DNA of 64,000 bases, from assembly GCF_014490035.1 (NCBI RefSeq), contig NZ_CP061008.1, positions 6,076,001-6,140,000 of the forward strand, given 5' to 3'. This DNA is from Achromobacter xylosoxidans (lineage in GTDB: Bacteria; Pseudomonadota; Gammaproteobacteria; Burkholderiales; Burkholderiaceae_B). Shown here piece by piece: positions 32 to 61,527 of this stretch (position 1 is the stretch's first letter; every line of letters begins with the position of its first letter). The notes under the pieces are model-generated. The model saw nothing but the letters and a program-made list of their open reading frames with translations, did not search any database and was not told the origin of the DNA. The position numbers and the translations under genes are program-made.

Positions 32-187
32 ACAGCATCACGACGCAAGACACCGCGTAAGCCCCAAAAGGCCGCCCGCGCGGCCGGCCTGGGGCGGGCC
101 CCGCAAGACACGCCCCCCAACACAGATGTCGGCAAGAACCAGAAGAACGCCAATCGCCCCAGCTGACGTCAAGTTTCAACCGCCAGA

Positions 188-351
188 GCCCGGTGCGTCG
201 GTGGCCCGGGAGGCGCGGGGCGTCGATAAGCCCGACGGAATCCGTAGGGAAGGCCGAAGGCCTGGACGAGGATGAGGACGGGGAAGTCCGGAGCGAAGGC
301 TCCGGACCGCAATCGTTGACCCGCGCCTCCCGGGCCACCGACGCACCGGGC
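188..351. repeat. Palindromic intergenic element, copy A
   Basis: A 164-bp element is bounded by a perfect 32-bp inverted repeat (188-219 and 320-351). Inside are two further hairpins: AGGCC-GAA-GGCCT at 251-263, and a 9-bp stem with a GAAG loop at 286-307 (GTCCGGAGC / GCTCCGGAC), followed by CCGCAATCG. The same architecture and core recur at 34588-34752. It lies 37 bp beyond the stop codon of the minus-strand Bug gene. No convincing protein is encoded; apparent reading frames across it are a by-product of the palindrome. It could be a MITE/REP-like repeat or a structured RNA or terminator-like element. Confidence 0.8.
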
Positions 352-388
352 GTCTTAAGAACCAACGACGCCCATCAAGACAAACCAA

Positions 389-34389: not shown

Positions 34390-34407
34390 AAAGTATCTAG
34401 ATACTTT
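34390..34407. promoter_or_regulatory. Perfect 18-bp palindromic operator
   Basis: AAAGTATCTAGATACTTT is fully self-complementary and centred about 50 bp upstream of the predicted start point. That is an activator position, or a remote repressor half. No regulator gene is adjacent; the LysR protein at 25455-26336 is one candidate. Confidence 0.7.
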
Positions 34408-34587
34408 GGGCCCCTAAATAGGGACGCGCTTGCCGCCTCCGCTACGGCATTCGCGCCAGCGAACACAATAGAAATGAAAGAAATCACGTATGTCATTATT
34501 GGCCGCCCGCGCGGCCAATAATGACGGGCACCAAAAGCCCCGCCCCCGACCACGGATGCAGCAGCGCCACAAGTCAAGACTCAAGTA
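34408..34587. other. Non-coding stretch upstream of the palindrome
   Basis: The stretch contains no supported gene. It has one small inverted repeat (TTGGCCGCCCGCGCGGCCAA around 34499-34518) that could fold as a hairpin but has no T-run. Confidence 0.5.
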
Positions 34588-34752
34588 GCCCGTCGGCGCC
34601 GGCGCGTGGGAGGCGAGCAACCTCGATGCGCCCGAGGGAATCGGAAGGCAGCCGCCGCAGGCGGCAACGACGATGACGACGGGGCAGTCCGGAGCGAACG
34701 CTCCGGACCGCAATCGTGGGCGCTCGCCTCCCACGCGCCGGCGCCGACGGGC
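34588..34752. repeat. Palindromic intergenic element, copy B
   Basis: A 165-bp element is bounded by a perfect 31-bp inverted repeat (34588-34618 and 34722-34752). Its core shares GGAATC, the CAGTCCGGAGC-type hairpin (GTCCGGAGC / GCTCCGGAC at 34687-34708) and CCGCAATCGT with copy A at 188-351. The outer arms differ from copy A except for the outer GCCCG and inner GGGAGGCG stretches. It lies between the ilvD terminator and the aminobenzoate-type operon promoter. No protein is likely. Confidence 0.8.
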
Positions 34753-34830
34753 GGCCTACGAAGCACCACGGCACCGGCACCCACACCGGCACCCACACGG
34801 CGTCAACACCAACCAGCACTCACCAAACGA

Positions 34831-34860
34831 CCAAAAAAAAGCGGCGCTAAAAAGCGCCGC
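34831..34860 (-). terminator. Rho-independent terminator of ilvD
   Basis: An 8-bp stem GCGGCGCT (34841-34848) / AGCGCCGC (34853-34860) with an AAAA loop is followed on the minus strand by eight T. It lies 24 bp past the ilvD stop codon. Confidence 0.9.
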
Positions 34861-34884
34861 CCTCTTACCAACCAGCAAGCAAAA

Positions 34885-36753
34885 TCAACGCTTGCCCTTC
34901 TGCTTCAGCTGCGACAAATCCCGCACAGCCCCACGATCCGCCGAAGTCGCCAACGCCGCATACGCCTGCAGCGCCTGCGACACGACACGTTCGCGGCCGA
35001 CCGGCTCCCAGCCGTCAGCACGAGCATCCATTGCCGCCCGGCGGCGCGCCAGTTCCTCGTCGGACACCGCCAGATGCATCTTGCGGTTCGGGATATCGAT
35101 CTCGATCACGTCACCCTCTTCCACCAGGCCGATCGTGCCGCCTTCCGCCGCTTCCGGCGAAGCATGGCCGATCACCAGACCCGACGAACCGCCCGAGAAA
35201 CGGCCATCCGTGAACAGCGCGCAAGTCTTGCCCAGGCCCTTGGACTTCAGGTACGACGTCGGATACAGCATTTCCTGCATGCCCGGACCGCCCTTCGGGC
35301 CTTCATAGCGGATCACCACCACGTCGCCCGGAACGATCTGGTCGCCCAGGATGCCTTCCACCGCATCGTCCTGGCTTTCGAAGACGCGCGCGCGGCCGGT
35401 GAAGACCCATTGCGACTCGTCCACGCCCGCCGTCTTGACGATGCAGCCCTTTTCAGCCAGATTGCCGTACAGCACGGCCAGGCCGCCATCCTTGGAATAG
35501 GCGCTTTCCTTGCTGCGGATGCAGCCCGTCTTGCGGTCGGTATCCAGCGTCAGGAAGGTTGCGTCCTGGCTGAACGCCACCGTGGTCGGAATGCCGCCCG
35601 GAGCCGCACGGTAGAACTTCTGCGCCTCTTCGCCAGCGCCGCCGGCCACGTCCCATTGCTTGATTGCGTTGCCCAGCGTGCCGCTGTGCACGTTGCCGCA
35701 GGACAGATCCAGCAGGTCCGCGCGCGCCAGTTCACCCAGGATGCCCAGGATGCCGCCAGCGCGGTGCACGTCTTCGATGTGGTACTTGTCGGTGGCGGGC
35801 GCCGCCTTGCACAGGCAGGGCACCTTGCGCGAAATGCGGTCGATGTCGGCCATGGTGAAGTCCACGCCCGCTTCCTGCGCCGCGGCCAGCAAGTGCAGCA
35901 CGGTGTTGGTCGAGCCGCCCATGGCCACGTCCAACGCCATCGCATTCTGGAACGCGCTCTTGGTGGCGATGCTGCGCGGCAGGACCGACTCGTCTTCTTC
36001 CTGGTAATAGCGGCGGCACAGGTCCACCACCAGGCGGCCGGCCTGTTCGAACAGCCCCTTGCGCCAGGCGTGCGTGGCGACGATGGTGCCGTTGCCCGGC
36101 AACGCCAGGCCGATGGCCTCGGTCAGACAGTTCATCGAGTTGGCGGTGAACATGCCGGAACAGGAGCCGCAGGTCGGGCAGGCGCTGCGTTCGACTTCGG
36201 CCACTTCGGCATCCGACACCTTGGGGTCGGCGGCCTTGATCATGGCGTCGATCAGGTCGATCTTGGCGATGACCTTGCCATCGGTGGGCGACTTGACCTT
36301 GCCCGCTTCCATCGGACCGCCCGACACGAACACGACCGGGATGTTCAGGCGCATCGCGGCCATCAGCATCCCCGGGGTGATCTTGTCGCAATTCGAGATG
36401 CAGACCATGGCGTCGGCGCAATGCGCGTTGACCATGTATTCGACCGAGTCGGCGATCAGTTCGCGCGAGGGCAGCGAATACAGCATGCCGCCGTGGCCCA
36501 TCGCGATGCCGTCGTCCACGGCGATGGTGTTGAATTCCTTGGCGACGCCGCCTGCGGCCTCGATTTCCTTGGCGACCAGTGCGCCCAGGTCGCGCAGGTG
36601 CACGTGGCCCGGCACGAACTGCGTGAACGAGTTCACTACCGCGATGATCGGCTTGCCGAAGTCGCCGTCCTTCATGCCGGTGGCGCGCCACAAGGCGCGG
36701 GCGCCGGCCATGTTGCGGCCGTGGGTCGAGGTGCGGGAGCGGTAGTGCGGCAT
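34885..36753 (-). CDS. ilvD: Dihydroxy-acid dehydratase
   Basis: The 622-residue enzyme dehydrates 2,3-dihydroxy-isovalerate and -3-methylvalerate in valine/isoleucine synthesis. It has the N-terminus [20 protein letters not shown], iron-sulfur cysteines in [10 protein letters not shown] and [19 protein letters not shown], and the C-terminal [20 protein letters not shown]. Length is close to E. coli IlvD (616). It stands alone with its own terminator and no other ilv gene in the window. No attenuator-like leader was recognised upstream. Confidence 0.97.
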
Positions 36754-57317: not shown

Positions 57318-57393
57318 GGCCTGGTAGCTCAGTCGGTAGAGCAGAGGATTGAAAATCCTTGTGTCGGTGGTTCGATTCCGCCCCAGGCCACCA
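57318..57393 (+). tRNA. tRNA-Phe (GAA), copy 1, CCA encoded
   Basis: 76 nt with a 7-bp acceptor GGCCTGG/CCAGGCC, D-stem GCTC/GAGC, anticodon stem GAGGA/TCCTT with loop TTGAAAA (anticodon GAA), T-stem GGTGG/CCGCC with TTCGATT loop, and a templated CCA. An upstream element ATTGTGTATAGT with -10 TATAGT (57299-57304) is shared with copy 2. Confidence 0.98.
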
Positions 57394-61451: not shown

Positions 61452-61527
61452 GGCCTGGTAGCTCAGTCGGTAGAGCAGAGGATTGAAAATCCTTGTGTCG
61501 GTGGTTCGATTCCGCCCCAGGCCACCA
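61452..61527 (+). tRNA. tRNA-Phe (GAA), copy 2, CCA encoded
   Basis: All 76 nt are identical to 57318-57393, including anticodon loop TTGAAAA and CCA. The upstream stretch ATTGTGTATAGT (-10 TATAGT at 61430-61435) and following GCGGACTT are nearly the same as in copy 1. It lies 35 bp after the mscS-type stop codon. Confidence 0.98.

Follow-up and report, generated by a model that had tools for sequence, protein, structure and literature searches.

Two perfect inverted repeats in a 64,000-nucleotide stretch of Achromobacter xylosoxidans DNA (positions 6,076,001 to 6,140,000 of NZ_CP061008.1; hereafter the window) belong to a dispersed intergenic family that appears to specify a structured, strand-specific molecule. 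This molecule would most likely be a non-coding RNA, transcribed in the + direction, in which base pairing and a central core are under selection, and we put the probability of this reading at roughly two in three. A repeat search of the window paired positions 188-227 with 312-351 (copy A) and 34588-34627 with 34713-34752 (copy B). Read pair by pair, copy A contains 32 consecutive Watson-Crick arm pairs (188-219 with 320-351) and copy B contains 31 (34588-34618 with 34722-34752), which confirms the perfect arms of 32 and 31 bp reported in a preliminary description of this DNA. The divergence between the two sets of arms that it reported was also reproduced: 12 of the 31 common pairs differ, while GCCCG on the outside and GGGAGGCG on the inside are common to both. 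Copies A and B fold far below their dinucleotide shuffles (z -11.45 and -11.37; for each, none of 200 shuffles did as well). The two fall in different subtypes, copy B being type 1 and copy A type 2, and do not stem from a recent duplication. Both elements are larger than their arms, with a structured and conserved core between the arms and a second hairpin upstream, as laid out below.

61..95, + strand: copy A upstream hairpin (about 61-95), around GGCCGCCCGCGCGGCC at 70-85; from comparison of copies.
188..219, + strand: copy A (type 2) outer stem, left arm (32-bp perfect); from the repeat search and pair-by-pair reading.
220..319, + strand: copy A inner part, predicted three-way junction and GA-rich core; from folding.
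320..351, + strand: copy A outer stem, right arm; from the repeat search and pair-by-pair reading.
352..363, + strand: copy A conserved 3' end motif, type 2, GTCTTAAGAACC; from comparison of copies.
34492..34525, + strand: copy B upstream hairpin GTCATTATT-GGCCGCCCGCGCGGCC-AATAATGAC; from comparison across copies.
34588..34618, + strand: copy B outer stem, left arm (31-bp perfect); from the repeat search and pair-by-pair reading.
34619..34721, + strand: copy B inner part, predicted closing helix CGAT/ATCG, three-way junction, GA-rich rod with variable apical hairpin, and second hairpin GTCCGGAGCGAAcGCTCCGGAC; from folding, the fold being retained in a cross-genus alignment.
34722..34752, + strand: copy B outer stem, right arm; from the repeat search and pair-by-pair reading.
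34753..34764, + strand: copy B conserved 3' end motif, type 1, GGCCTACGAAGC; from comparison of copies.

The view of A and B as two copies of one element held, but it was too narrow both in the extent given to the elements and in their number. The 6.76-Mb genome (G000) contains 22 copies, with A and B among them, and model R1 also gives 22; 12 are of type 1 (including copy B) and 10 of type 2 (including copy A). Within the genus, 42 of 43 genomes have at least one match to R1, with 1 to at least 23 per genome in a scan that scored at most 23 candidates in each. A core-pattern scan of genomes of named species found at least 120 stretches; all 80 of the matches listed by title are from Achromobacter, and the other 40 entered the analysis as well. 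The broader model R2 matched 66 of the 268 genomes of the taxonomic family, in 13 of its 43 genera, although beyond the genus a number of the matches are weak (E 1e-4 to 1e-3, the E-values being rough); outside the taxonomic family, a sample of 368 other genomes from the class yielded one weak match. Matches per genome range from 1 to 77, the highest total being that of G197, where a few are cut at contig ends. Some contigs of G197, G004 and other genomes start or end in or beside a copy, and draft assemblies seem to break there. At the gathering score, Rfam 15 matched two tRNAs only in the window and neither element, and it had no match for 16 loci, 13 of them from other genera; a relaxed Rfam search of 34400-34900 gave 12 matches, every one below its gathering score. 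Plasmid and phage collections searched for the element gave no match. The two tRNA genes, which have equal Rfam scores, lie about 4 kb apart (57318-57390 and 61452-61524 of the window).

On the + strand, the unit reads 5' to 3' as a small upstream hairpin, a spacer of about 60-95 nt, a main hairpin (about 165 nt) whose arms vary in sequence, and a conserved end, which is GGCCTACGAAGC in type 1 and GTCTTAAGAACC in type 2; many type 1 copies also have GTAG at the 5' edge. The outer stem of the upstream hairpin, which surrounds GGCCGCCCGCGCGGCC, varies in sequence across copies and is mostly paired still. Nineteen exact sites of the GGCCGCCCGCGCGGCC hairpin occur in G000, 17 of them at copies; the other two lie at a divergent partner where no main hairpin was detected. 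The main stem encloses a three-way junction from which one hairpin, GTCCGGAGCGAAnGCTCCGGAC, and one rod emerge. The rod, CCCGAsGGAATCsGAAGG...ACGAsGATGAsGA, carries a variable apical hairpin at its end and can be read, in our interpretation, as tandem G·A motifs. Alignment A2 holds 21 of the 22 G000 copies, the one with a 14-nt core insertion having been left out. Core lengths of 80, 81, 84, 85, 86, 94, 98 and 99 were found (range 80-99). Such lengths break any common frame, and a coding function was rejected for this reason; the variation speaks against a conserved reading frame without proving transcription. Core pair S13 is T-A in 119 copies, C-G in 109 and G-C in 31, with zero departures in the 259 of 269 cores that could be parsed (10 fell outside the parsing pattern). 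These three states combine with several identical apical hairpins, and core modules reassort between orthologues, a pattern that seems to point to frequent exchange or in-place change within the core. Two further repeats were seen near copies. The type 1 end motif CGGCCTACGAAGCA or close variants recur downstream of some copies (L031 after 1238, L030 after 3215, L034 beside 1893), and an extra inverted repeat of the kind GGATGGGTGGCGCGCG...CGCGCGCCACCCATC lies at the pair centres in L030 and L032-L035 and upstream of single copies in L031, L037 and L038.

Pairing of the arms is retained across copies. The preliminary description had reasoned that degraded, non-matching arms in other copies would reduce the perfection seen here to chance or recent duplication. 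We looked for such arms and found that 267 of 269 copies retain at least 26 of 31 arm pairs, with all 31 being Watson-Crick or G·U in 147. Watson-Crick pairs fill 95.1% of 8277 arm cells (267 copies, two having been excluded from the cell count). These figures carry a mild bias towards paired arms from two sources, in that some loci were fetched with a model that uses 13 arm pairs and the arm register of each copy was set for best pairing; against this, the 269 copies themselves were chosen by core pattern. When the left arm of one copy was set against the right arm of another, a mean of 19.2 of 31 positions paired, and 4.65% of draws reached at least 27 because some copies have common arms. 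Nearly identical arms in four G000 copies rule out the idea that arms are copy-unique labels. The preliminary description had also suggested testing aligned copies for covariation. A cross-genus alignment was built with 29 distinct rows; these represent 13 genera of the taxonomic family and, in addition, a weak match from elsewhere (G592). Of its 1140 cells, 93.4% are paired, compared with 34.9-39.2% when partners are slid, double changes occur at 39 of 42 pairs, and none of 500 shuffles scored as high; this alignment was fitted to the model and hence leans towards the model fold. The motif GAAGG(G/A)AG...GGACGA mostly persists across genera, and the fold is retained despite quite different stems. 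The covariation beyond controls, together with the strand-specific departures described next, is the combination by which conserved structured RNAs in general are recognized.

A hairpin departure that reads G·T on one strand reads A·C on its complement. Processes that act on duplex DNA therefore produce the two equally, whereas selection on one folded strand does not, so that the ratio of G·U to A·C provides a test of strand. Among the 8277 cells of the 267 copies we counted 232 G·U, 21 A·C, 125 G·A, 8 C·T and 23 other departures, placing G·U:A·C at about 11:1 in the main stem. A smaller set of 143 copies gave 162 G·U against 8 A·C, and 83 distinct arms gave 90 against 3. The upstream hairpin, present at the same loci in the same orientation, served as a control. 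After filtering for pairing, it gave 14 G·U against 12 A·C (61 distinct stems with at least 6 of 9 Watson-Crick pairs) or, with a stricter filter, 10 against 7 (53 distinct stems, at least 7 of 9); control counts in which the two subtypes are mixed were 15:35, 23:28 and 3:2. The difference between main stem and control (162:8 versus 14:12) is significant by a Fisher test (p 1.4e-7). For G·A versus C·T the control is weak, at 16:4 with the loose filter and 4:2 with the strict one. Because the control lacks a G·U excess, that of the main stem is unlikely to reflect an overall mutational preference for G·U, although a transcription-linked mutation bias beginning 3' of the control could imitate some of it. 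The asymmetry of the departures, set against the even G·U:A·C of the control hairpin, makes the + strand most likely the folded strand. Single-stranded DNA, too, tolerates G·T and G·A better than other mismatches, so these counts would fit either molecule; RNA is the natural reading and, in our judgment, most likely the correct one.

It is unlikely, in our estimate, that the + strand instead folds as single-stranded DNA, in the manner of REP/RAYT, IS200/IS605 or attC, with pairing kept for transposition or recombination. Strand-specific folding, the 1 to 77 matches per genome and the conserved 3' end motifs at the outer ends of pairs would all fit such an element, but searches for the domains of a RAYT or an RVT_1-family reverse transcriptase did not reveal an enzyme partner. 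The Y1 transposase/RAYT domain (Y1_Tnp, PF01797) had no match in the copy-rich genomes G000, G001, G031 and G039, and only one of the 13 genomes searched (G021) had one. RVT_1 was found at E <= 0.001 in 5 of these 13 genomes; it is absent from the copy-rich G001, G031 and G039, and in G000 it lies more than 100 kb from any copy. On these searches of 13 genomes, in which no transposase, RAYT or reverse transcriptase could be tied to the copies, both enzymes were rejected as present mobilizers, and the family does not fit a retron or other reverse-transcribed element. Also against such an element, no target-site duplication was evident at five G000 pairs and three G197 ends found by pattern. REPs are short palindromes of about 20-40 nt with conserved sequence, and the stem here is far longer. 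The family resembles REP/REPIN elements with their RAYT in its many intergenic copies, some of them in inverted pairs, and in the GTAG edge of many type 1 copies; it differs in having a main hairpin of about 165 nt with variable arms rather than a short conserved palindrome, in its upstream hairpin, and in the lack of a RAYT domain in the copy-rich genomes tested. Integron attC sites, which are likewise strand-specific imperfect hairpins with little sequence conservation, have the edges RYYYAAC/GTTRRRY. No such edges were seen by eye, and the family is dispersed as single copies or outward-facing pairs, not as cassette arrays.

Comparison of orthologous loci showed how the arms change. Probes from the flanks of copies A and B each matched all 43 genomes of the genus, and 30 loci were fetched for each. 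By eye, the 30 loci of copy A comprise 12 with the element in place, two with the core deleted, two cut or interrupted and 14 without it. Inspection of 21 of the 30 loci of copy B, at ilvD, found the element present in eight, as a remnant in two, at a contig edge in one and absent from 10; the core pattern found no copy in the remaining nine. Copy number and presence or absence between genomes indicate that elements have spread in the past. Orthologous elements have quite different arms and retain pairing. Remnants were seen at L269, L272, L243 and L239, in which deletion of the core left a short hairpin or deletion of the main hairpin left the upstream hairpin or end.

To follow single steps, the 269 copies were grouped by 3' flank, both groups and gene calls being automatic, and nearest orthologues were compared along 111 edges with at most 7 changed pairs; this analysis and that of divergence used only the 231 copies in register, 38 of the 269 being out of register or poorly paired. 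Changes on both sides that left a Watson-Crick pair numbered 172; there were also 86 single changes of the Watson-Crick/G·U kind, 45 changes to other mismatches, 11 to A·C and 16 of other kinds. Orthologues with a single differing pair show a one-sided change in 20 of 22 cases, and double changes rise with distance. Arm changes therefore do not always come in pairs, as the preliminary description had proposed to check. Double changes are not clustered (10 of 65 lie beside another change, with 8.4 expected), which makes it unlikely that they arose mainly through conversion tracts from other copies. By type, 101 of the 172 doubles are transversions and 71 transitions, with 40 and 25, respectively, at the shortest distances. 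A path through G·U alone would favor transitions, and the excess of transversions thus goes beyond that simple story. By kind, G-C/T-A accounts for 44, A-T/C-G for 4 and C-G/G-C for 41. A path through tolerated G·A, the commonest mismatch, may explain why G-C/T-A exceeds A-T/C-G, whereas C-G/G-C doubles need several steps or a DNA route, and arm-to-arm template switching could add to the rate of double change.

Arm divergence was then set against divergence at fourfold-degenerate sites of the neighboring gene for 393 orthologue pairs, both values being uncorrected and the pairs non-independent. By bin, the values for arms and fourfold sites were 0.005 versus 0.037 (3 pairs), 0.135 versus 0.082 (15), 0.099 versus 0.124 (56), 0.126 versus 0.175 (81), 0.247 versus 0.246 (106) and 0.327 versus 0.360 (130). 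Thus, arms diverge about as much as fourfold sites, which suggests that they are close to free in sequence while structure is retained. Near-neutral divergence is also what unbiased arm-templated correction of DNA predicts, by cruciform gene conversion or by polymerase template switching in a quasi-palindrome, and such correction would need no functional RNA; the abundance of transversion-type doubles (101 of 172) is in its favor as well. Template switching that homogenizes the arms of inverted repeats is described in PMC8604942. As a full account, however, correction is distinctly improbable. It does not predict the strand-asymmetric departures (232:21 and 125:8), the missing G·U excess in the upstream hairpin (14:12), the predominance of one-sided changes (20 of 22) between nearest orthologues with a single differing pair, or the internal loops of the core, which are retained and not made perfect. 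The preliminary description had offered correction between arms and selection on a folded DNA or RNA side by side; selection gains from these data, and correction of duplex DNA as the sole cause is ruled out by the strand asymmetry and by the one-sided changes that come first. Correction may nonetheless contribute alongside selection.

Under selection on a + strand RNA, the molecule would be a rigid hairpin, with a 31-pair stem of almost free sequence, a three-way junction, a G·A rod with a variable apical hairpin, and a second hairpin. The stem would act as a duplex of fixed length, and selection would bear on pairing and core rather than on the arm sequence as such. A one-arm mutation that results in G·U or G·A would be tolerated and compensated later, and other mismatches would be removed or compensated sooner; the arms would hence drift at roughly the neutral pace without losing their pairing. 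Copies have spread, often as outward-facing pairs between convergent genes. We further infer a transcript with a role of its own, a promoter belonging to the element in or upstream of the spacer, and a partner bound by the conserved core.

In G000, the gene on the 3' side points at the element in 21 of 22 copies (automatic gene calls). For 143 copies including orthologues, the 3'-side gene is opposite in 100, in the same direction in 37 and without a call in six; 59 of the 113 copies with both neighbors called lie between convergent genes, 30 of the 143 having no gene call on at least one side. Five outward-facing pairs occur in G000, the same arrangement recurs in G044, G059, G175, G193, G195, G197, G199 and G272, and in G087 the copies of such pairs are 2.4-3.4 kb apart; divergent pairs occur in several genera. 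Inserted IS genes were the only genes found between paired copies (five G000 pairs, L225 and L226 of G087, and L403 of G197). Very improbable, finally, is a MITE-like repeat (ERIC, NEMIS or YPAL kind) that a trans-acting transposase would have spread as duplex DNA, with hairpin RNA as a read-through by-product: dispersed intergenic copies, presence or absence between species, remnants with core or main hairpin deleted, the frequent position between convergent genes and some likeness between the outer ends of a pair would suit it, but the terminal arms of MITEs are expected to be conserved in sequence, whereas in this family few parts vary more than the arms, in which pairing is what is retained, and a by-product RNA would not give G·U:A·C of about 11:1. 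MITEs are also marked by target-site duplication; none was evident at the ends inspected, and by eye the outer ends of pairs have just a short motif in common. Returning to a selected + strand RNA, we tentatively consider a fuller version of it possible, in which the element would be, family-wide, a self-spreading divergent pair of non-coding RNA genes with a sequence-free 31-bp stem rigidly maintained as a duplex of set length. The stem would evolve at about the neutral rate by two coupled routes, stepwise selection on the RNA strand and template switching between the DNA arms, the latter accelerating the transversion-type doubles, and the GA-rich core would be a protein ligand.

No published description of the hairpin family was recognized in the literature searched, where the candidates Bor-2 and BRE were compared by description only. 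ERIC, NEMIS (Correia) and YPAL repeats (for some of their features, see PMC2267715) resemble it in being dispersed, intergenic, hairpin-forming, of similar size and possibly mobile; the present family differs in its hypervariable co-varying arms, strand-specific departures, conserved three-way-junction core and frequent outward-facing pairs. Bor-2 of Bordetella bronchiseptica is reported as a 167-bp intergenic stem-loop family with 17 members (6 complete) and an RNAz value of 1.00 (PMC2267715); likened by this description rather than by sequence, it may be a relative. BRE, the Beta-proteobacterial repeat element of Bordetella, is presented in PMC3110155 as a repeat of the Alcaligenaceae linked to the small RNAs bprJ1 and bprJ2; at about 75-91 bp it is shorter than the present element, and it is often tandem and also found in the Comamonadaceae. 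Set against that description, the family's copies in G000 are non-tandem, and the 368 other genomes sampled in the class gave one weak match.

If our reading is correct, the family would be a structured RNA element without a found description, with up to 77 matches per genome across Achromobacter and its relatives. Near-neutral drift with pairing retained would make it a dense record of how helices are maintained through mismatched intermediates, and the family could separate RNA selection from DNA template switching, which is usually hard to test. Should the self-spreading pair also prove true, it would represent a mobile structured RNA of a new kind, and its hundreds of orthologous and paralogous stems would preserve compensatory evolution in unusually rich natural detail. 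At a practical level, the family flags repeats where draft contigs end and insertion sequences have entered.

Several such insertions were seen. Nearly identical matches to a Mutator/IS256-type IS lie between or beside copies in all five fetched loci of G087 (L225-L229); the element is PF00872 (tested on L226), and in L226 repeats offset by 167 bp adjoin it. As the parent gene of the G087 pairs, this transposase was rejected, since it looks like a separate IS inserted centrally. In G009, an IS110-family element (PF01548, PF02371; L092, 435-1391) lies within the apical hairpin of a copy, and the conserved core may be its target there. In G197, a divergent pair (L406) adjoins a gene whose start resembles the FAD-monooxygenase neighbor of copy B, while the gene on the other side differs (by eye).
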